Below, in pieces: positions 559-54,905 of a stretch of DNA of 64,000 nucleotides. The position numbers and the translations under genes are program-made. The notes under the pieces are model-generated. The model was not told the DNA's origin, ran no database searches, and worked only from the letters and a program-made list of their open reading frames with translations. The stretch comes from Rhodopseudomonas pentothenatexigens (lineage in GTDB: Bacteria; Pseudomonadota; Alphaproteobacteria; Rhizobiales; Xanthobacteraceae), in contig NZ_UFQQ01000006.1 of NCBI RefSeq assembly GCF_900218015.1, positions 62,001 to 126,000 of the forward strand. The letters run 5' to 3'. Positions within the stretch are counted from its first letter, which is position 1. Each line of letters starts with the position of its first letter.

Positions 559-3500
559 ATGAGCGCGCCGCGTTACGCCGAAATCGGCGTCACCACCAAT
601 TTCTCGTTTCTCGAAGGCGGATCGCATCCGCAGGACTATGTCCATGAAGCGAGCCGGCTCGGGCTCGACGCGATCGGCATCGCCGATCGCAACACGCTGG
701 CCGGCGTGGTCCGCGCCTACAGCGAACTCGACAACGAGGACTTGGCTTACAAGCCCAAGCTGCTGATCGGCGCGCGGCTGTGCTTCATCGACGGCACGCC
801 GGACGTGCTGGCCTATCCGACCGATCGCGCCGCCTACGGCCGCCTCTGCCGCCTGCTCAGCGCCGGCAAGCTGCGCGCCGGGAAGGGCGAGTGCCATCTG
901 ACGTTCGCGGATTTAGAGGAGTTCGCCCACGAGCCTGCCACACCTAGCGATAGGGCTTCGGCTACTATCCACCAACTCCACTCCCCGTCATGGCCGGGCT
1001 TGACCCGACCATCCACGGCTCCGAGCAAGGCCGTGCTGGTGTCCGTGGATGCCCGGGTCAAGCCCGGGCATGACGGTGGAACGGTTACGGGTCGTCATTC
1101 GAAGATATTGCTGGTCGTCATGCCGGCCTATCGCTTCCAGACCAAAGCGATTGCCACCGCACTCGAACGCCTCACCGCCCTCAACGCCGGTGCCGTCTGG
1201 CTCGGCCTCGCGCCGTATTATCGCGGCGACGACAAGCGGCGGCTCGATCGGCTGCGCCGCATCGCGGCGGCAGCGAAGGTGCCGTGCATCGCCACCAACG
1301 ACGTACTGTATCACCACCCGGCGCGGCGCGCGCTGCAGGACGTGCTGACCTGCGTCCGCGCCAAGACCACGATCGACAAGGCCGGCCGCAAACTGGAGGG
1401 CAATGCCGAGCGGCATCTCAAGCCCGCCGCCGAGATGGCGCGGCTGTTCCGCGCCGATCCGGACGCGATCGCCGAGACGCTCAGGTTCGCGGGTCGCATC
1501 GGCTTCACGCTGGACGAACTGAAATATCACTATCCCGACGAGCCGGTGCCGCCCGGCAAGACCGCGCAAGCGCATCTGAAGGACCTCACCGAGCAGGGCA
1601 TCCAGCAATATTTCCCGCACGGCATCAGCGACAAGCTGAAGGCCACCATCGCCAAGGAACTGGCGATCATCGAACGGCGCGGCTACGCGCATTATTTTCT
1701 CACCGTGCACGACATCGTCCGCTATGCGCGCTCGCAGAATATCCTGTGCCAGGGCCGCGGCTCGGCGGCCAATTCGGCCGTCTGCTACGTGCTCGGCATC
1801 ACCTGCGTCGATCCGACCGAGATCGACCTGTTGTTCGAGCGCTTCGTCTCCGAGGAGCGCGACGAGCCGCCGGACATCGACGTCGATTTCGAGCATTCGC
1901 GCCGCGAAGAGGTGATGCAATATATCTATCGCCGCTACGGCCGGCATCGCGCCGCGATCGTCGCCACCGTGATCCATTATCGGCCGCGCTCGGCGATCCG
2001 CGACGTCGGCAAGGCGCTGGGGCTGTCCGAAGACGTCACCGCGGCGCTCGCCGACACGGTGTGGGGAAGTTGGGGCAAGGGCCTGAGCGAGATGCAGGTG
2101 CGCCAGGCCGGGCTCGATCCGCACAACCCGATGATCGGCCGCGCGGTCGAACTCGCCACCGAGCTGATCGGCTTTCCGCGGCATCTGTCGCAGCATGTCG
2201 GGGGCTACGTGCTGACGCAGGACCGGCTCGACAGCTACGTGCCGATCGGCAACGCCGCGATGGAAGATCGCACCTTCATCGAATGGGACAAGGACGACAT
2301 CGACGCGGTCAAGATGATGAAGGTCGACGTGCTGGCGCTCGGCATGCTGACCTGCATCCGCAAGGGGTTTGATCTGATCGCGCAGCACAAAGGCGTGCGC
2401 TTCCGGCTCTCCGACGTCAAGTCGGAGGACGACAACGCCGTCTACAAGATGCTCCAGCGCGGCGAGTCGATCGGCGTGTTCCAGGTCGAGAGCCGGGCGC
2501 AGATGAACATGCTGCCGCGCCTCAAACCGAGATGTTTCTACGATCTCGTCATCGAGGTCGCGATCGTGCGGCCGGGGCCGATCCAGGGCGACATGGTGCA
2601 TCCTTACTTAAGGCGGCGAAACGGCCAGGAGCCGGTGGTGTATCCATCGCCGTCCGGCGAGGCCGACAAGGATGAACTGCGGCAGATCCTCGGCAAGACG
2701 CTCGGCGTGCCGCTGTTCCAGGAGCAGGCGATGCGGATCGCGATCGAGGCGGCGCATTTCACGCCCGACGAGGCCAATCAGCTCCGCCGCGCGATGGCGA
2801 CGTTCCGCAACGTCGGCACCATCGGCAAGTTCGAAGCCAAGATGGTCGGCAATCTGATGGCGCGCGGCTACGACGCCGCCTTCGCCAAGAATTGCTTCGA
2901 GCAGATCAAGGGCTTCGGCTCCTACGGCTTTCCCGAAAGCCATGCCGCGAGCTTCGCCAAGCTGGTCTATGTCTCGGCGTGGATGAAGTGCGAGCATCCC
3001 GACGCGTTCTGCTGTGCGCTTCTGAACTCGCAGCCGATGGGGTTCTATGCGCCGGCGCAGATCGTCGGCGATGCGCGCGCCAACGCCGTCGAGGTGCGGC
3101 CGGTGGACGTGTCGTTCAGCGACGGCCAGTGCACGCTGGAGGAGCGCGTCGGCCGGCATCACGCGGTGCGGCTCGGCTTCCGGATGATCGACGGCTTCCG
3201 CTGGGTCGATCCGGACGAGGAGCGGGTGCGGATTGAGGCCGGCGAGGCGCCGAGCGACGACTGGGCGGCGCGCATCGTGACGGCGCGGGCGAGAGGGCGG
3301 TTCGGCTCGCTCGAACAGTTCGCGCGGATCACGGCGCTGCCGAAGCGCGCGCTGATCCTGCTGGCTGATGCCGACGCGTTCCGATCGCTCGGGCTCGATC
3401 GCCGCGCCGCGCTGTGGGCGGTGCGACGCCTGCCCGACGACGTACCGCTGCCGCTGTTCGAGGCGGCGAGCGCGCGCGAGCAGCAGGACGAGCACGCCGC

Positions 3501-6340: not shown

Positions 6341-7438
6341 ATGGACCATCAAGACCTGATCGACAAGATCTACGAAGCAGCCTTTATCCCGGAACTGTGG
6401 CCTGACGTTATCCAAGCGCTTGGTGCAGTCTCGCATTCAGCATCCGGCGCCATGCTGGTCTTCGACGGAACGATGCCTATTGGATTCAAGGCGACACAGC
6501 TTTTATTCGATACGATCCATAACTTCTGCACCACCTCCGCCTGGCGGGAAAGTCGCCGGATTCAGCATTTCTACACAAACCCTTTGTCTGGATTTGCCCT
6601 CGGCTCGGAGTACTTTCCGCCTGAAATAGTGGAAGAGGACGAGCGGCTTCTAAAATTGAAGAAACTGGGCTTTCACGACTATGCGGGAACCATCATCCCG
6701 ATGCCGACAGGCGAAATTGTCGTATTTGCGCTCCATCGCAAGATAGACGACGACGCTTTCTCCAAACGGGAGCTGGACGGCCTGAACGAGTTCTACGGCC
6801 ATCTCGCACGCTCCAGCCTGATGTCCGCGAGACTACGCCTGCAACAAGCACATGCCACCGCAGCCGCAATGGCCGCCTTCGGTTTACCGGCGGCAGTCCT
6901 CACCAACTCAGGACGCGTATTGTCGACGAACCTCCTGCTGGAGAACATGCCGGACGTATTCGTTCCGCTCGCTCATGGCAGGATGTGCATCGGCGACACC
7001 GAGACAAACAAACTGCTGCAAGAGGTCATCAACGCTCAACAGGCCGGCGCTGAACCGTCGGTCCGTTCCGTTCCGTTGATGAGCCGAAACAACATTGAGC
7101 CAATGGTCGTCCATGCTCTGCCGCTTCGCAGGTCCGCGCACGATGTCTTCTCAGGGGGGGACATCTTGATCGTTGCCAGTCCCGTGACCGCCAGCAGCAT
7201 GGTGCCGTCCCCAACGATCCTCATGGGTCTTTTCGATCTCACACCCGCCGAGACCAAAGTGAGCATGGCGCTTGCATCGGGAAAATCACTAAAGGAAGCC
7301 GCGCTCGAGAACCACGTCACGGTCAAGACCGCCCGATCTTATCTCGAGCGGATATTTGCCAAAACCGGAACCCGGCAGCAGAGCCAGCTCGTGGCCCTGC
7401 TCAAGAGCACCGCGGCCCCCGGCAACAGGACCGGCTGA
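6341..7438 (+). CDS. LuxR-family helix-turn-helix transcriptional regulator
   Basis: The 365-residue protein has an N-terminal PAS/sensor-like region and a C-terminal GerE/LuxR-type HTH at about residues 300-358 (LTPAETKVSMALASGKS, then TVKTARSYLERIFAKTGTRQ). ATG 6341 is preferred over the in-frame GTG at 6317 because the paralogous remnant upstream aligns from this Met and a purine-rich GGAGCAGGGTGGGG leader precedes it. No response-regulator receiver or acyl-homoserine-lactone domain is evident, so the signal is unknown. Within the insert it is the natural candidate to control the divergent porin-like gene. Its stop lies only 16 bp before the right-hand dnaE2 repeat. Confidence 0.85.
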   Translation: MDHQDLIDKIYEAAFIPELWPDVIQALGAVSHSASGAMLVFDGTMPIGFKATQLLFDTIHNFCTTSAWRESRRIQHFYTNPLSGFALGSEYFPPEIVEEDERLLKLKKLGFHDYAGTIIPMPTGEIVVFALHRKIDDDAFSKRELDGLNEFYGHLARSSLMSARLRLQQAHATAAAMAAFGLPAAVLTNSGRVLSTNLLLENMPDVFVPLAHGRMCIGDTETNKLLQEVINAQQAGAEPSVRSVPLMSRNNIEPMVVHALPLRRSAHDVFSGGDILIVASPVTASSMVPSPTILMGLFDLTPAETKVSMALASGKSLKEAALENHVTVKTARSYLERIFAKTGTRQQSQLVALLKSTAAPGNRTG

Positions 7439-7454
7439 CGTTCGCTGGCTCTCT

Positions 7455-7553
7455 CGGCGACCGCCGCGACACCCCCGACGCCCCCGCCCGACGCCATCGC
7501 CACCCCCGCGACGTCCGTATCCTGCCGCCGTCACGGGATTTTCATTGAGAAGG
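7455..7553. repeat. Direct repeat copy 2 (duplicated 3' end of dnaE2)
   Basis: This second copy of the dnaE2 C-terminal coding sequence still encodes the same tail through RDFH and the stop codon, with three substitutions relative to 4005-4103. It is not attached to a polymerase gene here. It ends 64 bp before the methyltransferase ATG, marking the right boundary of the inserted segment. Confidence 0.9.
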
Positions 7554-7617
7554 TCGTTGTGGCAGCGCGAACCTGACCGGCATTCAAGACATCGGCGTCC
7601 TGCGCTACAAGATCCTC

Positions 7618-8283
7618 ATGAATGGATTCTCCGATCCTCAGGCTGTCGCCCGCTACGCTGAAAATCCGCCCCGCATGGTGCCCGGCTTTGCCGACATGCA
7701 GCGCATGGCGATGCTCCTCCTCGCGGAGCGCGCTCCGTCCAACGCTCAGGTGCTTGTTCTCGGCGCCGGCGGTGGCCTCGAACTCAAAGTGTTCGCCGAC
7801 GCGCAGCCCGAATGGTCGTTCGTCGGCGTCGATCCCGCCGCCGCAATGCTCGACCTTGCCCGGATCACCGTCGGCGACCATGCCGGCCGCATCCACTTTC
7901 ACGAGGGCTACATCGACAGCGCGCCAGACGGTCCGTTCGATGGTGCGACCTGCATTCTGACCCTGCATTTCATCGATCGTCAGGAGCGGCTGCGCACCCT
8001 CGAGCACGTGCGGCGTCGCCTCAAGCCGGGTGCCCCCTTCGTCACCGCTCATTACAGCATCCCCAACGGCGAACTCGACCTGTGGCTGTCCCGCTACGCA
8101 GCGTTCTCGATCACCTCGGGTATCGATCCTGTGCAAGCCAACGCCGCACGCGCCGGCATCGCCGAGCGTCTGCCGATCCTCTCTCCGGAGGACGATGAGC
8201 AGTTGCTGCGGGAGGCGGGCTTCAGCGGGGTCAGCCTGTTCTACGTCGGCTTCGCGTTTCGCGGCTGGGTCGCTTACGCGTGA
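7618..8283 (+). CDS. Class I SAM-dependent methyltransferase
   Basis: The 221-residue product has the Rossmann-type motif I (VLVLGAGGGLELKVFA, about residues 42-57), an acidic ribose-binding position (FVGVDPAAAML) and a motif near TCILTLHFID. These define a small SAM-dependent methyltransferase. The N-terminal NGFSDPQAVARYAENPPRMVPG segment resembles a family that acts on small molecules. The acceptor substrate cannot be inferred. The start ATG lacks a strong Shine-Dalgarno sequence. Before the putative 3.45-kb insertion the gene would have sat directly behind dnaE2. The next gene on the same strand is 150 bp away, so linkage in one operon is uncertain. Confidence 0.85.
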   Translation: MNGFSDPQAVARYAENPPRMVPGFADMQRMAMLLLAERAPSNAQVLVLGAGGGLELKVFADAQPEWSFVGVDPAAAMLDLARITVGDHAGRIHFHEGYIDSAPDGPFDGATCILTLHFIDRQERLRTLEHVRRRLKPGAPFVTAHYSIPNGELDLWLSRYAAFSITSGIDPVQANAARAGIAERLPILSPEDDEQLLREAGFSGVSLFYVGFAFRGWVAYA

Positions 8284-8432
8284 CAGACCTAAGAACGCCG
8301 TCCCTCGCGGACCTTGCTCAGCTAGCTGTTCGCGCCGAGCGGCCTCCCCGCGGGAACCGGCGTATGATGCTGACGTCGAGGTGAGCGAATGTCTCGTCCG
8401 CGCCCCAGGCAATAACCGGAGCCAATCGTCCG

Positions 8433-9830
8433 ATGCAAACTCCCCGCGACCTGCTTGCAGATCTCTGGACCTCCGTCGGCGCCGACCCCGCTGCGCTGGA
8501 GCACGTCACGCTGACCGGCGACGAGCCGCAATTGCCGTCGTCGTTTCGCGTCGACGCCGCGGCGCAGGTGGCGATCGCGGCGAGCGGGCTTGCGGCGGCG
8601 CACATCTGGTCGATGCGAAGCGGGCTGATGCAGGACATCGGCGTCGATATCCGCGCCGCCGCGATCGAGTGCCGCTCCGAGCGCTACCTGCGCCGCAACG
8701 ATGAGCCGCCGACCTCGTTCTGGGATCCGCTCGCCGGCGTGTACCAGGTCAAAGACGGTCGCCATGTCCGGCTGCACACCAACTTCCCGCATCACCGCGA
8801 CGCTGTGTGTCAGGTGCTGAGGTGCGAGGCGACGCGGGAGGCGGTGCAGGCGGCGCTGCTGCAGTGGGACGGCGAGGCGTTCGAGACCGCGGCCTATGCG
8901 GCCGGCGGCGTGGTGGCGCTGATGCGCTCGCGTGACGACTGGCAGGCGCTGCCGCAGGCGCGCGCCATCGACGCGCTGCCGCTGGTGGAGATCAGCAAGA
9001 TCGGTCAGGCGGCGCCGAAGCCGTGGCCGGAAGGCGGCCGGCCGCTCGCCGGCCTGCGCGTGCTCGACCTGTCGCGGGTGATCGCCGGCCCCGTGGCCGG
9101 CCGCACCCTGGCGGCGCACGGCGCCGACGTGATGCTGGTATCCAGTCCGAAGCTGCCGTCGATTCCGTGGCTGGTGATCGACACCGGCCGCGGCAAGCTG
9201 TCGAGCTTCGCCGATCTCACCACGCAAGACGGCCACGCTGCCCTCCGCGCGCTGCTCGCCGAGGCCGATATCTTCAGCCAGGGCTATCGCCCGCATGCGC
9301 TGGCGTCGCTCGGCTTCTCGCCCGAAGAGGCGGCGGCGATCAATCCGGGTATCGTTTACGTCTCTCTATCCGCCTACGGACGCTCCGGCCCCTGGGCGGA
9401 GCGGCGCGGTTTCGACTCCTTGGTGCAATGCGCCACCGGCTTCAACGATGCCGAGGGGCAGGCAGCCGGCATCACCGGGCCGAAGGAATTGCCGATGCAG
9501 ATCCTCGACCACGCCACCGGCTATCTGATGGCGTTCGGTGCGATGATCGCCAAGGCCCGCCAGGCGCGTGAGGGCGGCAGTTGGCATGTTCAAGTCTCGC
9601 TCGCCCGCACCGGCACATGGCTGTGGGAGATGGGCCGGCTGTCGCACGGTCTTTCTACCCCCGAAATCGGCCCGGAGGCGGCGGCGCGATATCTCGATCG
9701 GGTCGAGTCCGGTTTCGGGACGCTGCGGGCGGTGCGCCACGCTGCGGTGCTGAGTGCGACGCCGGCGGCCTGGAGCCGTCCGGCGGTGCCGCTCGGCACC
9801 GACGCGCCGGTCTGGCCGGTCCGCGGCTGA
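8433..9830 (+). CDS. CaiB/BaiF (class III) CoA-transferase family protein
   Basis: The 465-residue protein shows the class III CoA-transferase pattern: PLAGLRVLDLSRVIAGPVAG (near residue 205), then DIFSQGYRPHALASLG and VYVSLSAYGRSGPWAERRG. The usual catalytic Asp is in the segment following the GP(W) motif. Family members move CoA between carboxylic acids. This one has a long N-terminal region of about 190 residues before the conserved core, as seen in proteobacterial proteins annotated only as CoA transferase. Its substrate is unknown and its neighbours do not help. Confidence 0.85.
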   Translation: MQTPRDLLADLWTSVGADPAALEHVTLTGDEPQLPSSFRVDAAAQVAIAASGLAAAHIWSMRSGLMQDIGVDIRAAAIECRSERYLRRNDEPPTSFWDPLAGVYQVKDGRHVRLHTNFPHHRDAVCQVLRCEATREAVQAALLQWDGEAFETAAYAAGGVVALMRSRDDWQALPQARAIDALPLVEISKIGQAAPKPWPEGGRPLAGLRVLDLSRVIAGPVAGRTLAAHGADVMLVSSPKLPSIPWLVIDTGRGKLSSFADLTTQDGHAALRALLAEADIFSQGYRPHALASLGFSPEEAAAINPGIVYVSLSAYGRSGPWAERRGFDSLVQCATGFNDAEGQAAGITGPKELPMQILDHATGYLMAFGAMIAKARQAREGGSWHVQVSLARTGTWLWEMGRLSHGLSTPEIGPEAAARYLDRVESGFGTLRAVRHAAVLSATPAAWSRPAVPLGTDAPVWPVRG

Positions 9831-10053
9831 GTTCTTCGTGTAGCTATCCCGGCGGCGGTTAATGTGCGGTTCAGAATGCGAGTCTTAAGGCTCGCAACCG
9901 AAGCGCGCGTCTCGAACCGACGGCTGACGCGCTGATGTCATCGTTCGCTGCTAACGCATTTGGGCGGTTTTTCGCTTTGCGCTGGCCACGATTCGGGCAT
10001 TATCAGCCGTCAGGGAGGCAACGCGGCGATCAAGCCGGAGCTCAGGGCAGGGC

Positions 10054-11292
10054 ATGCGCGAACAATTCCTTCGAACTTTGCGCCTTCGGCGCACATGGCC
10101 GATCGCGGCCGCATGCGTCGTCGCTGTCGTCGCGACGGCCGGTTATGAACTCTATCAGTTCGCCCGGGCCGACCGCGGCCACACCGAGATCTCCAGCCAG
10201 TCGCGGCGCAGCGCCGATCGCTACACCCCGACCCCGGCCGAATGGGCCAGCCTGACGATCGAGCCGGTGAGCGATCGCAGCTTCCGCGCCGAGCACGTCA
10301 CCGAAGGCAAGATCGCGATCGACGAGGACCGCGCCACGCCGGTGTTCTCGCCCTATGCGGGACGGGTGACCAGACTACTGGCGCGGCCGGGCGACCACGT
10401 CACCAAGGGCCAGCCGCTGTTCACCATCGAGGCGCCGGACACGGTGCAGGCGCAGAACGAGTTCATCGCGGCGTCGACCTCGCTCAACAAGGCCAAGTCG
10501 CAGCTCGAATTGGCGCAGCTCCAGGACAAGCGCGCACGCGACCTGATGGAAGCCAAAGCGGTGCCGCTGAAGGATTATCAGCAGGCCCAGGCGACGCTGA
10601 TCGCCGCGCAGAACGACGTCCAGTCCGCCACCACCGCGCTGCAGGCGGCACGCAACCGGCTGCGGATTCTCGGCCTGAGCGAAGCCGCGATCGCGGCGTT
10701 CCAGGACAAGGGCCAGATCAATCCCGAGACCACCATCGTAGCGCCGATCGCCGGCACCGTGGTGCAGCGCAAGGTCGGTCCTGGGCAGTACGTCAACGCC
10801 GGCGCCAGCGATCCGGTCTACATGATCGGCGACCTGTCGACGGTGTGGCTGACCGCCTTCGTGCGCGAGAGCGAAGCTGCCGCCGTCGACGAGGGCCAGG
10901 ACGTCAGCTTCAAGGTGCTGGCGCTGCCCGGCCGCACCCTGACCGGCAGGATCGACTACGTCGCGGCCGCGATCGACCCGGCCACTCGCCGGCTGACGGT
11001 GCGCGCCACCATCGACAATCCCGGCGGACTGCTTAAGCCGGAGATGTTCGCCAACGTCACGATCTATTCGCCGTCCGACCATCCCGCCGTCGGCGTGCCG
11101 CGGCAGGCGCTGATCTACGAAGGCGATCAGGTGCGGGTGTGGGTCGCGCACGACGACCGCTCGATCGAACTGCGCACCGTGAAGCCGGGCCTGTCGGCAG
11201 GCGATATGGTGGAGGTCACCGGCAATCTGCGGCCGGGCGAAAAGGTCGTCACCAAGGGCAGCCTGTTCATCGATCGCGCTGCCACCGGGTAA
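10054..11292 (+). CDS. RND efflux periplasmic adaptor (HlyD/CusB-CzcB family)
   Basis: The 412-residue adaptor has an N-terminal membrane anchor (residues 13-30) and a lipoyl-like half motif (VFSPYAGRVTRLLARPGDHV). A long alpha-hairpin with coiled coil follows (about 130-200), then the second lipoyl half (TTIVAPIAGTVVQRKVGPGQ) and beta-barrel and membrane-proximal domains ending RPGEKVVTKGSLFIDRA. This is the membrane-fusion component that links an inner-membrane RND pump to an outer-membrane channel. The partner pump gene follows 161 bp later. No outer-membrane factor is encoded in this pair. The long His/Met-rich metal-binding N-terminus of some CzcB/CusB proteins is absent, so the substrate is unassigned. 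Confidence 0.9.
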   Translation: MREQFLRTLRLRRTWPIAAACVVAVVATAGYELYQFARADRGHTEISSQSRRSADRYTPTPAEWASLTIEPVSDRSFRAEHVTEGKIAIDEDRATPVFSPYAGRVTRLLARPGDHVTKGQPLFTIEAPDTVQAQNEFIAASTSLNKAKSQLELAQLQDKRARDLMEAKAVPLKDYQQAQATLIAAQNDVQSATTALQAARNRLRILGLSEAAIAAFQDKGQINPETTIVAPIAGTVVQRKVGPGQYVNAGASDPVYMIGDLSTVWLTAFVRESEAAAVDEGQDVSFKVLALPGRTLTGRIDYVAAAIDPATRRLTVRATIDNPGGLLKPEMFANVTIYSPSDHPAVGVPRQALIYEGDQVRVWVAHDDRSIELRTVKPGLSAGDMVEVTGNLRPGEKVVTKGSLFIDRAATG

Positions 11293-11453
11293 ACACCCGC
11301 TCGTTCGACATCCGCCGTGCGGCGCCGCCGCCGGCGCGTCCCGCCTCCTGTTTCTGTCGTCGCACCGTTCGTTCGAACCTCCCCGCGACGATGATCCACA
11401 CACCCGCCGGACCCGCGTTTCGCAGCCTCGGCCTCGCCTGAAAGGTCCGGTCC

Positions 11454-38839: not shown

Positions 38840-40906
38840 ATGTCTAGTGCTCATTCGTCGCACGTGTCGCCCGCTGCGGCGGGCCCGTTTTCGTTCTTCA
38901 CCAACCGCAAAATCGGCATCAAAATCGCCATCGGCTTCGCCGCCGTCGAAGTGCTGCTGGCGCTGCTGGCGATCCTGAACTACGCCAACTTCAGCAAGCT
39001 CGGCGAAGCATTCTCCGCATTCGATCAACGCGTCGGCGTCGTCGACACGGTTCGCGACATCGAACTGGACTTCGTCAGTTTGCGCCGGACCGTGCGCGAA
39101 TACAGCCTCACTGGCGACGATGCGCTGATCGCCGAGGCCGGCAAGCGCCGCGCCGAACTTCAGGACAACATCAAGCGGGCGATGCAACAGGTCCGCGATC
39201 CCGGCCGTCAAGCTTCGATGGTCGAACTCGGCAGCAAGGTCGATTCCTACGTCGCACAGTTCGACGGGCTGACCAAACTCCGGCAGGATCAGAACCAGCT
39301 GTCGCTGACAGTGCTCGGGCCGGTCGGGCAGCGGATCGTCGGACGGCTCGAGCAATTGCAGTCCGCGACGATGAGCGGCGACGGCAACAGCGATCAAGCG
39401 CTCCTGGTCGGCCAATCGATGAAGCAGTTCCTGCTGCTGCGGCTGTTCGCCAGCAAGGTTCTGGGCATTCATCTGGAGAAGGCCGCTCAGGCCAGCGCCG
39501 AAAAGGCGCTGGCGGATTTCAGGACTGCGCTGTCGACGATGAAGACGGTGCTCACCGCCGACTCCGAACGCAAGCAGCTTGCGGCGATCGAGGCCGACCT
39601 CGCGATCTACGCCGACGGCTATCAACGGTCGGTCCGCGACGTGAACGAGATCGACGCCACCATCACGGCGATGACCAAGGTCGCGCAATCGCTGGCCGGC
39701 GATGCGGCGGCCATCAAGCAGTCCGGTGTCGCCGAACAGAAGCAGATCGGCCACCAGACCACGGCGCTGATCGGCGAGACCCAGAACCAGATCCTGTTCA
39801 TCACCCTGGGCGCGATGGCGCTCGGCTTTCTGCTCGCCTGGCTGATCGGCCGCGCGGTGTCGAAACCGATCGTGGCGATGTCGGGGGTGATGAAGGAGCT
39901 GGCCGCCGGCAACACCGATGTCGAAATCGTCGGCTCCGGCCGTTTGGACGAGATCGGCCTGATGGCCTGCACCGTCGAAGTGTTCAGGAACAACGCGCTG
40001 GAATGCGATCGCCTGAAGACCGAGCAGGAGGAGGCCGAACGCCGCGTCGCCGCCGAGCACAAGGCGGAGATGCAGCGGCTCGCCGATCACTTCGAAGGCG
40101 CGGTCGGTGAGATCATCGATACCGTGACGTCGGCTTCGACCGAGCTCGAAGCCTCGGCCGGTACGCTGACGACGACCGCCGAGCGCTCACAGGAGCTCGC
40201 CTGCTCGGTGGCCGCGGCCTCCGAACAGGCCTCCTCCAACGTGCAGTCGGTGGCGTCGGCGACCGAAGAGATGGCGTCCTCGATCACCGAGATCAGCCGT
40301 CAGGTGCAGGAGGCGGCGCGGATCGCCAACGAGGCAGTGGATCAGGCGCGCAAGACCAACGACCGGATCGGCACGCTCGCCCAGGCGGCGAACCGGATCG
40401 GCGACGTCGTCGACCTGATCAACACCATCGCCGGCCAGACCAACCTGCTGGCGCTCAACGCCACGATCGAGGCGGCACGCGCCGGCGACGCCGGTCGCGG
40501 CTTCGCGGTGGTGGCGCAGGAGGTCAAGGCGCTGGCCGAGCAGACCGGCAAGGCGACCGGCGAGATCAGCGCGCAGATCAGCAGCATGCAGTCGGCGACG
40601 CAGGAGTCGGTCGGGGCCATTCGCGAGATCGGCGGCACCATCGAGCGGATGTCGGAGATCGCCTCGACGATCGCGTCGGCGGTGGAAGAGCAGGGCGCCG
40701 CCACGCAGGAGATCTCGCGCAACGTGCAGCAGGCGGCGCGCGGCACTCACGACGTCTCCTCCAACATCGCCGACGTGCAGCGCGGCGCTACCGAGACCGG
40801 CTCGGCGTCGTCGCAGGTGCTGTCCGCCGCACAGTCGCTGTCGCGCGACAGCACGCGCCTGAAGGACGAAGTCGACCGCTTCATGGAGACGGTGCGGGCT
40901 GCATAA
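38840..40906 (+). CDS. Methyl-accepting chemotaxis protein
   Basis: The 688-residue transducer has TM1 (about 28-50) and a roughly 265-residue helical periplasmic domain resembling the helical bimodular (HBM) sensor fold. TM2 ([19 protein letters not shown]), HAMP, and a C-terminal signalling hairpin with [20 protein letters not shown] and [15 protein letters not shown] follow. The HBM-like domain in relatives binds organic acids, but the ligand here is unknown. It stands alone, without che genes nearby. A FixK-type box in its long leader suggests low-oxygen expression. Confidence 0.93.
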
Positions 40907-44605: not shown

Positions 44606-45667
44606 GTGAGTCGGTGGAGCAAGGTTGCGCTGCGCCGAAGAGTTTGCCATTTTTACGGTTGCATGGAACCTCGGATGCAATCGCGATGTTCGGCGGCGGG
44701 CGGCGTCGAGCAATTGGGAAACTGGATTGTCCGGCTGCGGCCGGGCGAACTGCTGAGTGTCACTGGGATCGGCATCAACGAGGTTCGAAAGGCTCTGGCG
44801 ACCGTTGAAACGGAGCGCTCTGCCTTGATTCTCCCCGACGCGCCCGGTGCTGAAGCCATCCTGATCCATCTGGTCGATGATCTTGCAGACCTTGCCCTTG
44901 CGTGCTGGCCACATTGGTATGGGACGGACTGTTCGACGGAAGAGGGGCGTCGGATCGTGGCTGCTGACCACCCCGCGATCGCGGCGGCCTGGTTTCGCGC
45001 GGCTTCCAAGCGGGCGGCACATGGTCATCGGCCGCGTCTTCGGCGGATGTCGATCTCGATCGAATTCAAACAATTGATGCAGGCGATCGATCCCCCCCAT
45101 TTGTTGTTGCTCTCGACAATCGATCCAAGCGACACCGCCCGCTCCGCACCGGTCATTCAGGTCCTCGAGTGGTGTGCTAGCCATGAGGCGTCGGTGGTCG
45201 CTATCTTTCCGAGAAAACCGCCCGCCGTCGCGCCGTTCGATCGTCTTTTATATGGTGCCGTCGACGTCGTATCGGCAGTCCAGCCGCTGCAAACTCGCTT
45301 CATCGCCCCGAGCGGGCGCGCGCATCACGCGAGTCTGGTCGAGCAGCGCGTCGAGGCAGCGCTGCTTCAAGACGGCGAACTCGCCTCGCTGTTTGTGTGT
45401 AACCAGACTGTCGCAATCGACGGTTATGGCAGCCCGCGTGTCGATCTGTTGTGGCGGGACGGTCGCGTTGTCGTCGAGCTCGACGGCCCCGAGCACCAGG
45501 GCGATCCGAATTTCGCCAACGATCGTCACCGCGACTACGAACTCCTGGTGGCCGGCTATCTGGTGCTGCGCATCACCAACCAGCAGGTCGCCACCGATCT
45601 GCAGGCCGCCATCGAAAAGATCCGCGCTGTCGTTCGATTCCGAAGAACAACCCTCAACCTACGGTAA
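44606..45667 (+). CDS. DUF559-like (restriction-endonuclease-fold) nuclease, first gene of putative defence operon
   Basis: The 353-residue protein ends in a DUF559/Vsr-like nuclease domain (about 255-345). VDLLWRDGRVVVELDGPEHQ supplies acidic residues Asp280, Glu291 and Asp293 with His298. It is followed by NDRHRDYELLVAGYLVLRIT, the typical DxxRD...L...Gy.vlR block. The N-terminal 240 residues match nothing I recognise. GTG 44606 is preceded by a purine-rich ACGGGA; ATG 44663 is an alternative without a Shine-Dalgarno. The next gene starts 5 bp after its stop. Domain content predicts DNA cleavage; target and trigger are unknown. Confidence 0.8.
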   Translation: MSRWSKVALRRRVCHFYGCMEPRMQSRCSAAGGVEQLGNWIVRLRPGELLSVTGIGINEVRKALATVETERSALILPDAPGAEAILIHLVDDLADLALACWPHWYGTDCSTEEGRRIVAADHPAIAAAWFRAASKRAAHGHRPRLRRMSISIEFKQLMQAIDPPHLLLLSTIDPSDTARSAPVIQVLEWCASHEASVVAIFPRKPPAVAPFDRLLYGAVDVVSAVQPLQTRFIAPSGRAHHASLVEQRVEAALLQDGELASLFVCNQTVAIDGYGSPRVDLLWRDGRVVVELDGPEHQGDPNFANDRHRDYELLVAGYLVLRITNQQVATDLQAAIEKIRAVVRFRRTTLNLR

Positions 45668-45672
45668 CGCCT

Positions 45673-46365
45673 ATGACCCCGAAACAGACGTTGATCGTGT
45701 GGTGCCTACTGGGCCGCAAGGGCCAGGCGTTGCAGGCCGAGATTCGTCCCGAGGTCGACAAGAAGGACCGGGAGGCGCTGGTCGCCGACGGATTGGTCTC
45801 GAGCTCCAAGATCGGCCGCGCGCTCGGACTGAAGCTGGAAGACAAAGGATGGAATTGGGCCGGTGAACACCTCGGCGACGAATTGCCGAAGAACTATCAT
45901 GTGCTGCAGCAATGGCTGGCGATGCTGAAGCAGCATTTCGAGAGCAGCGGCGTCACGCTCGCGGAATTCATCGGTCCTGCGCCCGAATGGCCGCCCGCTA
46001 AGCAGCCGAAGCAGCCGCGCAAGAAGAAGTCCCCGGCGTCGAGTCGGCCCAAGAGGAAGAAGGTCGGAGGCCACGACCGGCTCGATACGCCGTCGCCGGA
46101 GCAATTGCGGGCACGAATCAAGCAGGCGTATTTGGCGATCACCAACGGACGGAGAGGAGTGCCCGTGCCGTTGGGGCAGCTCCGTGAGCAATTGTCCGAC
46201 CTCGACCGCACCACGGTGGATGGCGCGCTGTTGAGGATTCACCAGACCGAGACGAAGGCCGGATTCGGCCGAAACGACGATCCGAAGAGCATTTCACCCG
46301 ACGAGGCTGAAGCCGCCTTCAGCTCCGGCGGAGACCCGTATCACTTCATTTGGTTTCAATCATGA
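45673..46365 (+). CDS. Small basic protein with possible winged-helix ends, second gene of operon
   Basis: The 230-residue protein has an N-terminal compact region (about 1-70, TPKQTLIVWCLLGRKGQALQ, DREALVADGLVSSS) that resembles a winged-helix fold. A highly basic middle follows (about 115-145, PKQPRKKKSPASSRPKRKKV), then a second possible winged-helix region (about 150-230) ending DPYHFIWF. A DNA-binding or adaptor role between nuclease and ATPase is plausible, but no named family is recognised. It starts 5 bp after the nuclease gene and overlaps the ATPase gene by ATGA, so the three genes are translationally coupled. Confidence 0.75.
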   Translation: MTPKQTLIVWCLLGRKGQALQAEIRPEVDKKDREALVADGLVSSSKIGRALGLKLEDKGWNWAGEHLGDELPKNYHVLQQWLAMLKQHFESSGVTLAEFIGPAPEWPPAKQPKQPRKKKSPASSRPKRKKVGGHDRLDTPSPEQLRARIKQAYLAITNGRRGVPVPLGQLREQLSDLDRTTVDGALLRIHQTETKAGFGRNDDPKSISPDEAEAAFSSGGDPYHFIWFQS

Positions 46366-49300
46366 ACGTAGCTTTGCAGGCGCTTCGTGTCGTCGATTTC
46401 AACTGGGTTCGCTCGTTGGACAGCATCTGGTTCGACGAAAATGCGGCTGCGGACGTCGGGCCGAACGCCGATATCATTGACCACGTCACTCAGGAGTTTC
46501 TCCGCGAAACGCTCGGGCCCAGATCGCGAGCGCCGGGAATCCCGCTGACGGGACATGCCGGGATCGGCAAGACACACTTCGTCAGCCAGCTACGTCGTCG
46601 CGTTTGGGACGATGGCGGTTGGTTCGTGCTGCTCGAAGTGCTGGGCTTGACCGATTTCTGGCGAAACGCTGCGCTGAGCTACGTCACGTCGCTGCTGCAG
46701 CCGATGTCCGATGGACGCCGTCAGCTCGAAGCTGTGCTGGCGGGCGTCGCGCGCCGCTTCAGAGTCGAGAAGGAGGTCGAGACCGCTTTCAACATCCCCA
46801 ATATCGAGGCGCGCAAGATCGTCGACGTGCTGGTCAAAGGTTTGATGCGGCACGACGTGCAGAACACGTTGCGGCACCAGGACGTGTTTCGCGCGATGTG
46901 CCTGCTGCGGTCCAACGACATCAACAGTGCCGGGCTCGCGCATGCCTGGCTGCAGGGCTACGATGCCGACGAACAGGCGCGCGCCGCTCTCGGCTTTCTG
47001 AAGCCGCCGCCCCAGCCGGTCGATCTCGTCAGGGGCATGTCCTGGATCATGAGCCTGGCCGGGCCGACCATGGTGGCGATCGACCAGATCGACGGCGTGG
47101 TCAACCCGAGCATCGTCACCGCCCATCTCAACGACGACGCCCCGAACCAGGGCCTCGGAGAAGCGCTGGCAGCTGGATTGCTCGAGCTCTACGACGTCGG
47201 ACATCGCAGCATGACCGTCGTCACCTGCCTGTTCAACTCGTGGCAGGCGCTGCAGACGAGGGGTTTGATCCCATTCAGCCAGCGCTTTCGCGAACCGTTG
47301 AACCTGCGCGAGATCAAAGATCCGGCGGACGTTCGCAGCTTGATCGTCAGCCGGCTGACGCCGGCCTATGCTTCCGTCAACTTCACACCGCCCTATGCGA
47401 GCTGGCCGTTCAGCGAGAACGCGATCGCCGGTGCGGCCGGTATCATCTCCACCCCGCGGACGATTCTGATGCGCTGCGATGCATTCCGTCGCAGCTGCAT
47501 CGAAGCGGGCGAGGTGACCGAGTGCGAACGCCTGACCGAGGCGGTTGCCACCCCCAACAGTTCTTCCTCACCCGACGGCTTTATCCAAGAGCTTCGACGA
47601 CTTGCGTCCGCCGTCGAGATCGACGATCTGATCGTCGCGGACGACGACGGCAAGCTCGCTGGTTTGCTCCGTGAGGTGTTCGATCTCTACGCGCGCGAAT
47701 TCGAGCCCAATGAAGCTGTCGATCTGGAGAGTCGCGGCGATCCGGCGCAACGGGTGCCGCCGCTGCATGGAAGATTGACGTTCACGTACCACGACCAGAA
47801 CGACCGCGAACGGCACTTCTGCTTCCGTGCGCTCGAACACACCCACGCAATCTCGTTTCAGGCGCGGCTCCGCGCAGCGCTGACCGCGTCCGGCATCAAT
47901 GCCAAGATCGCCGATCGGCATCTTGTCCTGGTGCGACGGAGCCCGATTCCGGGTGGGGCCAAGACCAAACAGTTGTTCGAGCTGTTTGAAAAATCGGGCG
48001 GTATCGTCGTCGATCCGGCGGATGCTGATCTGAAGGTCTTCGTGGCGTTGCGCCAGCTGAGCCGAGACGCCGCGACTGACGGTCGAGGAGCTGAGTTTGA
48101 TTCCTGGCTTCGCGCCGAGAAACCGCTTCTCGCCACGCAGTTCTTCCGAGCGGCCGGGCTCAGCCCGCCCCCGGTGACACCGAAGGCCGACGAGGGCGCG
48201 ACTGTGCCCGATGCCGAGCCGGCTACGCCGGAGCCGAGATCACCGACGCTAATGTCTACACCGGGGTCCGCGCAATCTGTCGCCGCGGAACCGCCCGCTG
48301 CGACATCGCCGGTTTCGCCATCGGCACCTCCACCCACTGAGGTGCCTCGCGCCAGACCGGACGCCATCCCGATCGGGCGCCGCATCGGCGTGGGCGAAGG
48401 GCAGGTGAGTGTGCCGCTCAGGCTTCTGCCGCGCCACACCGCGATCATTGCCGGCTCCGGTTCGGGCAAGACCGTGCTGCTGCGCCGGATCGTCGAGGAG
48501 GCGGCGCTCGCGGGGATTCCCGCCATCGTCATCGATCCGAACAACGATCTGTCGCGGCTCGGCGATCCGTGGCCGGCGCGGCCGGAGTCGTTCACCGCCG
48601 AGGACGACGACAAGGCCCGGCGCTACGCCGGCAATGTGGAGGTCGTCGTGTGGACGCCGGGCGTGCACGGCGGAAATCCGCTGTTCCTGTCGGTGATGCC
48701 GGACTTTGCGAGTCTCGGTGCCGACAAGGACGAGCGCCAGCAGGCTATCGACATGGCGGCCGAGACGCTGGGGCCGCTGGCCGGCGCGAAGAGCGCTTTG
48801 CAGAAGGGCGTTCTGACAGAAGCACTGCGGCACTTCGCAAGCGGTGGCGGAGGTGATTTGGATGGTTTCATCGAGCTGCTGACGGATCTGCCCGATGGTC
48901 TCAGTCCGATCGGCAACGCCGCCAAATTGGCGTCGGGAATGGCCGACCAGCTTCATGCCGCGGTCGCGACCAATCCGCTGCTCCGCGCCGACGGACCGGT
49001 ACTCGACCCGAAGCTGTTGTTCTTCGGGTCTGATCCGACGCGCGTCAGGCTGTCGGTGATCAACCTGTCGGGGCTGGCGACCGAGGCCGCGCGCGAGGAC
49101 TTCGTCAACCGGCTGCAAATGGCGCTGTTCGGCTGGATCAAGCGGCATCCTTCCGAGACCGGACTGCTCTACGTCGTCGACGAGGCGCAGACGTTCTTGC
49201 CGTCGCAGAAGCCTGCGCTCAGTCTCGGCAGCGGCATCAAGCTGGTCGCCCAGGCGCGCAAATACGGGCTCGGGATGGTGGTGGCGACCCAGGTGCCGCG

Positions 49301-49580
49301 CGGCATTCACAACCAGATCGTCTCGAATTGCACCACGCAGTTCATCGGCAAGCAGAGCGCGCCGGCGACCATCGCGGCAGCTCAGGAGATCATTGCCGCC
49401 AGCGGCGGACGGGCGGACGACATCGGCAAGCTCAAGGCAGGCGAATTCTACTTCGCCACGGAAGGATCCGGCAAACCCGCCAAGGTCCGCACACCGATCT
49501 GCCTGAGCTATCATCCGCCCAATCCGCCGACACCCGGCGAGGTCGTGTCTCTTGCGCGACGTTCGGTCGCGACAGCATAG
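46362..49580 (+). CDS. Fused AAA-type and HerA-type ATPase, third gene of putative defence operon
   Basis: The 1072-residue protein has two P-loop modules. The first has Walker A GHAGIGKT (residues 64-71) and a Walker B-like AIDQID (Asp241), with helical additions to about residue 420. A middle region (420-590) and a Pro/Ala-rich linker (600-667) lead to a C-terminal HerA/DUF87 ATPase. That part has Walker A GSGSGKT (698-704), Walker B LLYVVDEAQTF (Asp940, Glu941) and ATQVPRG. HerA-type motors form hexamers on DNA and often pair with nucleases. ATG 46362 overlaps the preceding stop; an in-frame TTG at 46350 is less likely. The gene ends 1 bp from the convergent Tat-protein gene. Confidence 0.88.
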   Translation: MNVALQALRVVDFNWVRSLDSIWFDENAAADVGPNADIIDHVTQEFLRETLGPRSRAPGIPLTGHAGIGKTHFVSQLRRRVWDDGGWFVLLEVLGLTDFWRNAALSYVTSLLQPMSDGRRQLEAVLAGVARRFRVEKEVETAFNIPNIEARKIVDVLVKGLMRHDVQNTLRHQDVFRAMCLLRSNDINSAGLAHAWLQGYDADEQARAALGFLKPPPQPVDLVRGMSWIMSLAGPTMVAIDQIDGVVNPSIVTAHLNDDAPNQGLGEALAAGLLELYDVGHRSMTVVTCLFNSWQALQTRGLIPFSQRFREPLNLREIKDPADVRSLIVSRLTPAYASVNFTPPYASWPFSENAIAGAAGIISTPRTILMRCDAFRRSCIEAGEVTECERLTEAVATPNSSSSPDGFIQELRRLASAVEIDDLIVADDDGKLAGLLREVFDLYAREFEPNEAVDLESRGDPAQRVPPLHGRLTFTYHDQNDRERHFCFRALEHTHAISFQARLRAALTASGINAKIADRHLVLVRRSPIPGGAKTKQLFELFEKSGGIVVDPADADLKVFVALRQLSRDAATDGRGAEFDSWLRAEKPLLATQFFRAAGLSPPPVTPKADEGATVPDAEPATPEPRSPTLMSTPGSAQSVAAEPPAATSPVSPSAPPPTEVPRARPDAIPIGRRIGVGEGQVSVPLRLLPRHTAIIAGSGSGKTVLLRRIVEEAALAGIPAIVIDPNNDLSRLGDPWPARPESFTAEDDDKARRYAGNVEVVVWTPGVHGGNPLFLSVMPDFASLGADKDERQQAIDMAAETLGPLAGAKSALQKGVLTEALRHFASGGGGDLDGFIELLTDLPDGLSPIGNAAKLASGMADQLHAAVATNPLLRADGPVLDPKLLFFGSDPTRVRLSVINLSGLATEAAREDFVNRLQMALFGWIKRHPSETGLLYVVDEAQTFLPSQKPALSLGSGIKLVAQARKYGLGMVVATQVPRGIHNQIVSNCTTQFIGKQSAPATIAAAQEIIAASGGRADDIGKLKAGEFYFATEGSGKPAKVRTPICLSYHPPNPPTPGEVVSLARRSVATA

Positions 49581-52697: not shown

Positions 52698-53466
52698 CGC
52701 CTTTCGGGCGGTCGCCGCCGAAGATCGCGCTGCCTTCCGCCGACAAATACGGCTTCAGCGCGGTCCACGGCACGAAGGCGTCGTAGCTGCCCTCGGCATA
52801 GGCTCCGACGGCGTAGGGAGCGTAGTGGAACGTCAGGCCGGAGCTTTTGCCGGATTCGGTCGACGGCGCCAACGTCACCGGGCCGATCTTCAGCAGTTTC
52901 GGCTCGATGCTCTTGACGTAGTCCTCGCCGTCATCGTCGGTCCCGCGCGCTTTCTTCTCGGCCCTCAGCGCTGCGATCGCGCCCTTGACCATCGCCTGCA
53001 TCGCCGCACTGCCGTCTGACAGATCGGTGAAGAACGGCCGGATGCTGATGCGCTTGCCGAGTTGCTTGTCCCACAGGATGGTATCGATGTCGGTGTTGGG
53101 GTGGGCGCCGCCGGTGTAGCTGTAGTCGGTGCGCAGGACCGAGGCATAACGGTTCGCGACCAGCGAATCCATCGTGTAGCTGCGCTCGTAGGTCCATGGG
53201 CCGTTGCGGAACAGCGCGGGATCGCTCTTGTATTCCGGCTCGGCCTCGGTGCGCTGCTGAGCGATCCATGTCTTGCCCTCGGCAAGGCAGTTCTCGGCGA
53301 GCTTGGTATCGGCCTTGATCGCTGCATCGAGCGTCACCGTGCCGTCGATCGCCTTGGTCTTGACGGCGAAGTCGGGTTTCGGCTTCGCCGGCTCGGCGAG
53401 GGCGGGGGAGAGGACGCAGATGCTGGTTAGGACCAGAACGGTGCGGAACAGGTTCGGAAGGCTCAA
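52678..53466 (-). CDS. Exported DUF3298-like (PdaC/RsiV-type) protein
   Basis: The 262-residue protein has a signal peptide (to about residue 24, SPALAEP) followed by a PdaC-like DUF4163 region and the RsiV-type DUF3298 region. Blocks include YSYTGGAHPNTDIDTILWD and LTFHYAPYAVGAYAEGSYDA, the latter typical of the family. The start is an unusual TTG at 53466: AAGGAG lies 8 bp upstream and the TTG overlaps the stop of the HepT-like gene (TTGA). This shows coupling to the toxin gene. In other bacteria the domain binds cell-wall ligands or lysozyme; its role here is unknown. Confidence 0.82.
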   Translation of the reverse strand: MSLPNLFRTVLVLTSICVLSPALAEPAKPKPDFAVKTKAIDGTVTLDAAIKADTKLAENCLAEGKTWIAQQRTEAEPEYKSDPALFRNGPWTYERSYTMDSLVANRYASVLRTDYSYTGGAHPNTDIDTILWDKQLGKRISIRPFFTDLSDGSAAMQAMVKGAIAALRAEKKARGTDDDGEDYVKSIEPKLLKIGPVTLAPSTESGKSSGLTFHYAPYAVGAYAEGSYDAFVPWTALKPYLSAEGSAIFGGDRPKGDDDRNK

Positions 53467-53807
53467 CGGTCGGACTCCTTGCGTGCACGAGAGACGAACT
53501 GCTGAAGTGGCTCGAGATCACGCTGGATCATTTCCCACAACAGTCGGGCGTCTGTCGCGTGATAGGCATGCCGAAGCCAGTTGCCGAGGTCGGCCAATCG
53601 GCGCCAATTGATGGATGGCTCAGTCGCCTTCAATTCATCGGGGAGGTGTCTCGAAGCTTCGCTAATTCGCTCCAGAAACCTCTCGACTCCCGCTAGTACC
53701 AACCGATCCGACTCGAAGTCGGCGAAATCCCTATCGCTTAGGACATCGCGAATGTTCCGGAGCTCTGTCTCGATATGACCCAGCCGATCGGGAATCGTCG
53801 GAGGCAC
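53463..53807 (-). CDS. HepT-like (DUF86) protein of MntA/HepT toxin-antitoxin pair
   Basis: The 114-residue helical protein is encoded directly after the MntA-like nucleotidyltransferase (2-bp overlap zone) and has HepT features, including a C-terminal DLGNWLRHAYHATDARLLWE. HepT toxins have an RX4HXY motif. Here HXY is present (His80, Tyr82), but by eye the Arg position is Gly75, with an Arg at 79 instead. The target Tyr for MntA modification is kept. GTG 53807 is chosen because GAGGTG precedes it at good spacing. Loss of the motif Arg could mean a weak or inactive toxin. Confidence 0.8.
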   Translation of the reverse strand: MPPTIPDRLGHIETELRNIRDVLSDRDFADFESDRLVLAGVERFLERISEASRHLPDELKATEPSINWRRLADLGNWLRHAYHATDARLLWEMIQRDLEPLQQFVSRARKESDR

Positions 53808-53808
53808 G

Positions 53809-54123
53809 TCAAAACACCTCGACGAGGTCTTGTGCGATCCGTTCCGCAAAAGCCGGCCGGATCGACCGGCGCATGGTCGCCTGAGCCCGGAGCCCTGTCG
53901 CGTCGGCCACAACATGTTCGACGCCGATCAGATCAAGAAGCGAGAAGCGAGCTTCCGGTGCGACCTCCACCAGCACGTCCAGATCACTGTCCGGTCGCGC
54001 GTCACCGCGGGCGCGCGAGCCGAACACATATAGCTTGGCCACGCCTTCGGCGCGCAATGCATCACCCCTCTCGCGCAATCTGGCGAGGATGGTGTCCAGC
54101 GGCATGTCGATGACGGAGGTCAT
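53809..54123 (-). CDS. MntA-like minimal nucleotidyltransferase antitoxin
   Basis: The 104-residue protein has the nucleotidyltransferase signature GSX10DXD intact: Gly35-Ser36 followed by Asp47 and Asp49 (FGSRARGDARPDSDLDVLV). MntA antitoxins AMPylate a Tyr in the HXY motif of their HepT partner. The HepT-like gene follows immediately on the same strand. The pair lies between the VapC-like gene and the DUF3298-like gene. Confidence 0.9.
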   Translation of the reverse strand: MTSVIDMPLDTILARLRERGDALRAEGVAKLYVFGSRARGDARPDSDLDVLVEVAPEARFSLLDLIGVEHVVADATGLRAQATMRRSIRPAFAERIAQDLVEVF

Positions 54124-54202
54124 GCCGTCATCCTACCACAGACGCCATATCTGTGCACGACACAGTTGCCGAGCGCTCGCGGAAGATGGCCGAACGCTCA
54201 GG

Positions 54203-54625
54203 TCAATTGTTTGAGGAAGTGGTCGGGAATATGATCACACCGGCGTTAACCGCCGCATGCTGCATCTGGCGATCCAGCGTGGCGAGCGTCGCGCCCCTGT
54301 CACGAGCCAAGCTGAGATAGGCCGCGTCGTAGTACGTCAATCCGTAGTCCTGCGCGAAGCGCAACAGATCGGACATCTGCGCCGACCGAATTGGCGGTTC
54401 GACTTCGATGTCCAGCGTCGCCAAGTCGGAGAGCGCAGCGTCGACGTCGTGCGCCGCGATTCGCTTTCGTCTCAGGTTGGTCAGAAGAACGTTTCCGACT
54501 TCCATCGACCAGTGCGCCGGCACAATCACGGCTTCGTTCAAGATGGCCTCGCTCAGCTCTCGCGCGGAGAAGCCTGTCTCGTTGAGTAGCCAGGCGATCG
54601 TGATCGAAGCATCGAGAACAATCAA
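54203..54625 (-). CDS. PIN-domain VapC-like toxin
   Basis: The 140-residue PIN-domain protein keeps the acidic catalytic residues expected for VapC ribonucleases: Asp5 (VLDAS), Glu42 (MEVGNVL), Asp100 (TYYDAAYLSLA) and Asp118 (TLDRQM). It overlaps the antitoxin gene by ATGA (54622-54625), the usual tight arrangement. VapC toxins cleave tRNA or rRNA; the target here is unknown. Confidence 0.9.
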   Translation of the reverse strand: MIVLDASITIAWLLNETGFSARELSEAILNEAVIVPAHWSMEVGNVLLTNLRRKRIAAHDVDAALSDLATLDIEVEPPIRSAQMSDLLRFAQDYGLTYYDAAYLSLARDRGATLATLDRQMQHAAVNAGVIIFPTTSSNN

Positions 54626-54900
54626 ACACGACGCCCTTCGTTGATCCAGCTTTTGATCTCTTCGGGCGTCGCTTTCAGGTCGATCGCCGCCGCACGTTCG
54701 CGAATGCTGGCGATTGCTTGTCGGCGTTTCTCGATCTGCTCGGGCGTCAGCTCGAGGTGCCGCGACTGGGGCCCTTCCCGCACCAGCCGTGCAACCGCAA
54801 CGCCGTTGCGAGTAAGCACAACGTCGTCGCCGCTCGACTCGATCTCAGCCACCAACGCTTCGAGCCGAGACTTTGCGTCGTCGATGGCAACATGCTTCAT
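54622..54900 (-). CDS. Phd/YefM-like antitoxin
   Basis: The 92-residue protein has the Phd/YefM N-terminal DNA-binding fold (AIDDAKSRLEALVAEIESSG, then DVVLTRNGVAVARLV) and a charged C-terminal tail (ERAAAIDLKATPEEIKSWIN) for toxin neutralisation. It precedes and overlaps the VapC-like toxin. Its start lies only 5 bp after the end of the mutase large-subunit gene, so it may be co-transcribed with it as well as autoregulated. Confidence 0.88.
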   Translation of the reverse strand: MKHVAIDDAKSRLEALVAEIESSGDDVVLTRNGVAVARLVREGPQSRHLELTPEQIEKRRQAIASIRERAAAIDLKATPEEIKSWINEGRRV

Positions 54901-54905
54901 TGCAG

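Follow-up and report, generated by a model that had tools for sequence, protein, structure and literature searches.

A mobile three-gene operon of Rhodopseudomonas pentothenatexigens joining a DUF559/Vsr-type nuclease to an AAA-HerA ATPase

A stretch of 64,000 nucleotides from Rhodopseudomonas pentothenatexigens (contig NZ_UFQQ01000006.1, positions 62,001 to 126,000; hereafter the window) contains three genes, A, B and C, in tandem on the forward strand (44606-49580). They encode a protein ending in a nuclease domain, a small adaptor with a probable winged helix at each end, and a large AAA-HerA ATPase. We find that A-B-C is a real, conserved and mobile operon within an already predicted kind of system, the HerA/FtsK capture systems, and we consider it a probable counter-invader operon, directed against plasmids, phages or both, this function being one that we infer. 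Its most surprising feature is that, as we read the actinobacterial loci, B and C form a constant core and the gene upstream of B is an exchangeable effector.

Gene A (44606..45667, +) encodes 353 residues from a GTG codon, gene B (45673..46365, +) 230 residues, and gene C (46362..49580, +) 1072 residues from an ATG. These coordinates, the 5-bp gap between A and B, and the four-base ATGA overlap joining B to C had been given in a first-pass annotation of the sequence and were confirmed from the window. The position of the A start codon is uncertain, because some 28 residues at the N-terminus are not conserved and were modelled with low confidence, and the true start may lie downstream. The ratio of nonsynonymous to synonymous substitution rates (dN/dS) against four relatives from the genus was well below 1 in each gene (A, 0.20-0.28; B, 0.13-0.32; C, 0.13-0.14; dS ~1 or >1 in several pairs), and all three are therefore under purifying selection. 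Promoter-like and terminator-like sites were no commoner at the operon than in shuffled sequences (1 vs 0.6 and 4 vs 4.2, respectively).

The three genes occur together. Nine of the 101 related genomes examined carry a full-length C, and one more has a copy broken by a contig end (G019, kept outside the nine as its C runs off the contig), and full-length A and B were present in exactly those nine; elsewhere, one genome (G009) had a match to A of 68 residues, covering the nuclease domain only. C was matched in 28 of these 101 genomes, ten of the matches being operon C (G019 included) and the other 18 distant or limited to HerA. Of 21 unbroken alphaproteobacterial loci, 20 have A, B and C in this order on a single strand; the 20 intact loci comprise 19 measured ones, including the window, and the plasmid-borne L078, and exclude L033, which is decayed, and L035, L040 and L046, which lie at contig ends. 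In the 19 measured loci, the A-B spacing ranges from -8 to +7 bp (taking the B start codon nearest the end of A), and the 4-bp overlap of B and C is present in 16. The evolutionary distances of the proteins correlate (A-B, 0.955; A-C, 0.979; B-C, 0.968), in values that still include species history. Co-occurrence in other genomes had been set in the first-pass annotation as a test capable of refuting the set; since the nine genomes (of 101) share all three genes and the set occurs in two phyla, it is not refuted. Three loci showed additional features. In Methylobacterium phyllostachyos (L033, 9579-12127), a decayed copy has the first part of A fused into the later part of C, with the nuclease, B and the AAA domain lost. 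In L045, a fragment of a second HerA motor (2793-3122; residues 796-868, 49%) lies ~5 kb upstream of the intact operon and is perhaps a relic of an older copy. In L108, a second, divergent C-like gene (6843-11294; an open frame of 1483 residues) immediately precedes A in an A-B-C operon that is otherwise normal.

The 36 actinobacterial loci, for which 22 of the 23 newly found genomes were used (G597, with two partial matches on separate contigs, was left out), comprised 22 with A, B and C in that order, 12 with B and C but without A, and two without B, one of them with a truncated C. In three of the A-less loci (L086, L113 and L115), an M02A-M02B gene pair lies directly before B on the same strand, with 35, 30 and 2 nt, respectively, between the M02B stop and the B start. 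The L086 pair was named by PADLOC, and the L113 and L115 pairs are its relatives (M02A, 74% and 52%; M02B, 70% and 38%). M02B was found in four of the 246 genomes of the class at E<=1e-20, and three of these four carry it on B-C. The D..ExQxK motif, present in all three M02A proteins, makes M02A a candidate nuclease. In another A-less locus (L105), B is preceded by genes for a TIR protein (similar to a plant TIR at E 5e-7) and a ParA/MinD-like ATPase, the stop codon of the latter lying 10 nt before the B start. Further A-less loci have a divergent gene for a large WD40-repeat protein, which from inspection by eye we take to be a trypsin-STAND protein with a small partner (L102 and L106); divergent M55A/B genes and an AbiD-like gene (L087, which is one and the same locus as L036); a regulator-like gene upstream, identified by eye (L088); or nothing defence-like upstream of B (L104 and L109). 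A kinase-like gene pair, recognised by eye, is divergent to C in L126, L128 and the B-less L127, and may represent a further set of partners. Parsimony on one C tree, scored as A versus other states with node support unweighed, gave six changes of the A state; the second tree had 52 tips, without L120 (C split over two frames), L122 and L127.

The right-hand flanking DNA is present in all 16 genomes of the genus and the operon in five, as an insertion of its own. In five of the 11 operon-less genomes (G003, G004, G006, G010 and G012), the site is empty, with ~40-110 bases between the flanking genes where the block would sit; in G012, the left neighbour is a chemoreceptor-like gene (window 38840-40906) and the intervening genes are missing as well. 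In G011, G013 and G002, the block lies elsewhere in the same variable stretch, and other strains' versions of this stretch contain, by eye, porin-, sensor- and chemoreceptor-like genes. The first-pass description of the operon as an accessory unit thus holds. The nearest named relative of the window is a Rhodopseudomonas palustris contig, whose C is 95% identical. More distantly, the window C is 66% identical to that of a Rhodospirillales copy. The identity is 60-62% to Methylobacterium copies and 45-46% to copies in three genomes of its own family; C is thus closer to the Rhodospirillales and Methylobacterium copies than to those of its own family, and horizontal transfer is therefore indicated. 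None of the matches listed for C in 288 further genomes of the class reached E<=1e-60; these lists score no more than two candidates for each genome, so that presence is a lower bound. The operon is commoner in actinomycetes, where it was found in nine of the 61 genomes from one order and in 26 of the 246 from the class. Among plasmid records, three matched C, and these three also matched A; one of them, the Nonomuraea 'plasmid' L077 (NZ_LT559118.1), is 11.85 Mb in length and therefore evidently a chromosome. A sequence labelled as a plasmid, L076 (NZ_LR134464.1), also looks chromosomal, with a ribosomal-protein cluster interrupted by the operon, a VapBC pair and a helicase. In three Methylobacterium loci, a gene that is recombinase-like by eye lies just upstream of A (L027, 6746-7744; L028, 6815-7813; L033, 7836-8834), with a helicase-like gene beyond it; this neighbour suggests carriage on an integrative element.

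The C-terminal domain of A (residues 241-348; 45326..45649) is a DUF559/Vsr-type nuclease by fold and acidic motif. The Pfam match to DUF559 (PF04480, E 2.6e-10, residues 278-343) recurs in 19 of 19 A proteins, and D280, E291, D293, H297 and D306 (GTG numbering) are invariant in 41 of 41, which bears out the earlier placing of Asp280, Glu291 and Asp293 in a DUF559/Vsr-like nuclease. In the model of A (predicted local distance difference test score, pLDDT, 79.1), the last 110 residues resemble 3hrl (Z 13.1, root mean square deviation (rmsd) 1.8 over 92 residues) and I-Bth0305I (3r3p; Z 12.7, rmsd 2.5 over 95), with AbaSI (Z 7.7) and PvuRts1I (Z 7.5) ranking lower. The first domain (residues 31-223; 44696..45274) is tentatively assigned an AAA/STAND NTPase-like fold without a P-loop, the pattern GxxxxGK[ST] being found in none of 19 A proteins. 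This assignment comes from fold comparison only, since Pfam gave no match for the domain and profile comparison showed no similarity to the AAA domain of C (hhalign probability 0.1). The nearest structures were RdrA (8fnw; Z 9.1, rmsd 3.7 over 163), CED-4 (2a5y; Z 8.8, rmsd 3.8 over 137) and ORC (Z 8.2), where the typical best background Z for this type of comparison is 7-8. In this comparison, the second made for A, the rows on this domain were AAA/STAND-type, but with Z values of 7-9, near background; Foldseek with A gave no match at E<=0.001 and a list mixing RdrA, ABC-type ATPases and ORC.

C consists of an AAA domain, a middle domain, a proline-rich disordered linker (606-664) and a HerA/FtsK motor. 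The AAA domain (residues 1-400; 46362..47561; P-loop G64-T71, Walker B D241-D244) matched AAA_16 in all 21 C proteins, and one relative also gave a weak ORC-CDC6-like match (E 0.004). The motor (residues 664-1072; 48351..49577; P-loop 698-705, DE 940-941) is of HerA type, as judged from DUF87 and the PADLOC mad8 model (E 3.9e-26, residues 669-1044). All 21 proteins keep the two P-loops and the two Walker B motifs as well as R966 and Q977, in agreement with the earlier view of C as a 1072-residue ATPase with two P-loops, the second of HerA type. In the AlphaFold2 model (mean pLDDT 80.1, predicted template modelling score 0.55), the motor was closest to the C-domain of DndH (7es4; Z 26.0, rmsd 4.5 over 326) and, tied with it, to HerA (4d2i; Z 25.8, rmsd 4.1 over 320), followed by VirB4 and the HerA proteins of antiphage complexes; the matches of whole C were filled by its HerA end, the AAA and middle parts being barely covered. 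The middle domain (residues 406-605; 47577..48176) matched no PDB sequence up to E 10 and no consistent Pfam family. A helix, three strands, a helix and a strand are predicted at 430-550, an element order compatible with an inactive restriction-endonuclease fold, and no conserved D..ExK was seen there.

B is probably composed of two winged helices joined by a linker of varying length and charge. The winged helix of DUF6293_C (Pfam) was matched in eight of 21 B proteins (best E 4e-4), and AspA and MarR chains were the weak matches among PDB sequences (E 0.014-0.05), so that the winged-helix ends proposed in the first-pass annotation are plausible; the basic centre proposed with them is not conserved, the net charge being -3 to +1 in seven of 21 proteins. 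PADLOC, NCBIfam, PHROGs and Pfam gave nothing convincing for the window B and single-domain matches only for A and C.

No defence island was seen around the window operon. Toxin-antitoxin-like genes lie 4-5 kb downstream, at 53463-54123, presumably a HEPN/nucleotidyltransferase-like pair, and at 54203-54900, which from its motifs we take to be a VapBC-like pair. In G002 and G013, 14 bases replace the stretch 54141-54901, and the VapBC-like pair is therefore a polymorphic insertion itself. At 22 loci, all outside Rhodopseudomonas, 132 neighbouring genes (three per side, of 249 called within 7 kb) matched 67 PADLOC families at E<=1e-10; of the 25 families listed, 22 had one member and three had two. 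These included REase_II, mad2 (two), mad3 (one), PDC-M72A (two), Ankyrin (two) and a subtilase, and a scan of ten of the neighbouring genes traced M55A/B and M02A/B. No background set was scanned, and we therefore claim no enrichment in defence genes.

A related two-gene pair, a protein of ~380 residues with an AAA-HerA protein of 1133-1239 residues, was observed in six other families of the order (L047 8560-13132, L048 6579-11335, L049 6070-10859, L050 9311-14071, L051 9688-14290 and L052 5255-10147). It has no match to A and forms a clade separate from the A-B-C operon. At least four of these loci share neighbours that are lipoprotein-, flippase- or ParA-like by eye, and the pair may therefore have a resident function. 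B was considered as a homologue of the ~380-residue partner; the similarity was weak (probability 42%), and homology is not claimed.

Taken as a probable counter-invader operon of the capture kind, A-B-C could work as follows. B and the AAA part of C would detect the double-stranded DNA of an invader or load onto it, perhaps during its replication, its segregation or its entry into the cell. The HerA part of C, to judge from its family, would form a ring and pump this DNA. A would dock on the machine, likely through its P-loop-less AAA/STAND-like domain, and its nuclease would nick or cut the DNA being pumped. B-C would then be the sensing and pumping core, and A one of several plug-in effectors. 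A wider proposal, for which we see the chances as evenly poised, is that B-C is a general platform for DNA interception, in which the winged-helix adaptor and the AAA-HerA motor serve whichever effector gene lies directly upstream (A, the M02A/M02B pair or the TIR protein with the ParA-like ATPase), the motor either delivering invader DNA to the effector or being triggered by that DNA to activate it.

The defence-linked partners of the A-less loci (M02A/M02B in three, TIR and ParA-like genes in one) count in favour of a counter-invader role, as does the independent proposal of a capture-type role for such an architecture (PMC10853773). The co-occurrence and order of the genes, the empty sites, the signs of horizontal transfer, the intact nuclease and P-loop motifs and the fold of the motor speak for it as well. 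Several observations weigh against it. No match was found in 50,697 phage records, and viral contigs gave one distant partial match (27%, residues 676-977). Ordinary genes flank most of the alphaproteobacterial loci that were read, and the traced PADLOC candidates sit in two Hamadaea loci, in a scan with no background control. In the fourth genome with M02B (G606), this gene lies ~5 Mb from the A-B-C locus, and M02A, read as a nuclease by its motif only, had no match to PDB sequences up to E 5. The AAA-like assignment of the first domain of A, at Z 7-9, is barely over background and lacks sequence support. Finally, the A-B-C set contains no methylase gene, so that the sparing of host DNA must come from the state of the DNA or from the target of B.

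HerA is a classic repair motor, and the archaeal HerA-NurA complex is among the best fold matches. A-B-C might accordingly be a repair or recombination machine of the HerA-NurA type, in which C pumps broken ends and A trims or nicks them for the benefit of the host. The related pair, with its partly conserved surroundings in six genomes, indicates that such an architecture can have a resident function. However, that pair lacks a match to A and belongs to a separate clade, the presence of A-B-C is patchy (in the genus and in the 288 other genomes of the class, as described above), and empty sites and the exchange of the effector are ill-suited to housekeeping repair, so that we regard this explanation as unlikely. 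The first-pass annotation had asked whether the set maps to a named system or to a housekeeping role; no named system was found, and for a repair role the answer goes no further than making it unlikely. It had not anticipated the earlier prediction of the general architecture, the P-loop-less AAA/STAND-like domain of A or the replacement of A on a constant B-C.

It is similarly improbable, in our estimation, that the operon is cargo serving the segregation, transfer or integration of a mobile element or island rather than the defence of the host. Motors like HerA, TrwB and VirB4, to which the fold of C was matched, serve conjugation, a recombinase-like gene adjoins A in the three Methylobacterium loci and one variant includes a ParA-like gene. 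However, no relaxase or transfer gene was recognised by eye among the neighbour genes listed, the insertion in the genus consists of this unit only, and the phage and plasmid records gave no phage match and three plasmid matches, one of them evidently chromosomal. That A-B-C is a divergent form of an already named system (MADS, DndFGH or HerA-DUF4297/SIR2) is very improbable, since the mad8 match, the matches of several HerA models and the weak match of DndH cover the HerA motor only, neither A nor B has a match in any of them, and none of the three proteins was matched to their defining partners.

If the counter-invader explanation is correct, A-B-C is one more HerA system, widely spread, whose single pump works with different killers or cutters, and it connects M02, a candidate listed by PADLOC, and a TIR effector with a core that pumps DNA. 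It would also raise the sharp question of how a methylase-free nuclease system spares its host.

Neither PADLOC 2023 nor NCBIfam 2026 has a named system to which A-B-C as a set corresponds. MADS is a set of eight genes, mad1-mad8; the motor of C resembles mad8 in sequence, but the mad8 model is 314 residues long and none of the other mads models had a match in the three proteins. The DndFGH system provides the nearest motor fold, in the C-domain of DndH, tied with HerA. However, DndH is a protein of ~1700 residues with other N-terminal domains and eight domains in all (PMC10853773), the PADLOC DndH model meets C only weakly and only at residues 688-729 (E 0.053), and no PADLOC Dnd model matches A or B. 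The HerA-DUF4297 and SIR2-HerA complexes (PDB 9c1m, 8wld and others) likewise combine a HerA motor with an effector, but their HerA is a separate protein of 560-690 residues, the aligned part of which starts after the first ~110-144, whereas in C the motor follows AAA and middle domains in the same chain, and the constant core includes a third protein, B. No match to a DUF4297 or SIR2 partner was found in A or B with Pfam, PADLOC or NCBIfam. BREX-Related Capture systems, which combine a HerA/FtsK motor with an Orc/Cdc6 ATPase and a winged helix-turn-helix (wHTH) protein, resemble A-B-C in outline, but are described as having seven components, including PglZ, DUF6079 and DUF4007 (PMC12839542), none of which was matched in A, B or C by Pfam.

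The closest comparison is with the HerA/FtsK capture systems, predicted as mobile operons of an Orc/Cdc6 ATPase and HerA/FtsK that intercept invading DNA (Rakesh, Aravind, Krishnan 2024; PMC10853773). Their parts are given there as the Orc/Cdc6 ATPase, an inactive restriction endonuclease (REase) before a wHTH, an active REase of two families, one as in AbiJ, the HerA/FtsK ATPase, with a glutamine as sensor 1 and an arginine finger just upstream, and wHTH proteins. A-B-C similarly has an AAA ATPase, a HerA/FtsK motor, a protein of probable wHTH type and a nuclease with its motif intact in one mobile operon, as well as a domain between the AAA core and later helices. The invariant Q977 and R966 of C correspond to the HerA/FtsK hallmark, and the AAA_16 matches together with the single ORC-CDC6-like match place the first domain of C among AAA proteins without separating Orc/Cdc6 from other AAA families. 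A-B-C differs in having the AAA and HerA modules in one chain, an exchanged effector and, behind the P-loop-less AAA/STAND-like domain, a nuclease of DUF559/Vsr type; the terms DUF559, Vsr and EDxHD are absent from the main text of PMC10853773. Some of the A-B-C loci may already be included in its Supplementary Data S1. We found neither the A-B-C family nor its effector exchange in print, in a search that most subscription papers, preprints and supplements lay outside. The general architecture, as set out in the main text of that study, is thus one already predicted as HerA/FtsK capture systems, and A-B-C, which fits its outline, would be a compact three-gene operon bearing on the interception of invading DNA by HerA/FtsK motors, as proposed in 2024.

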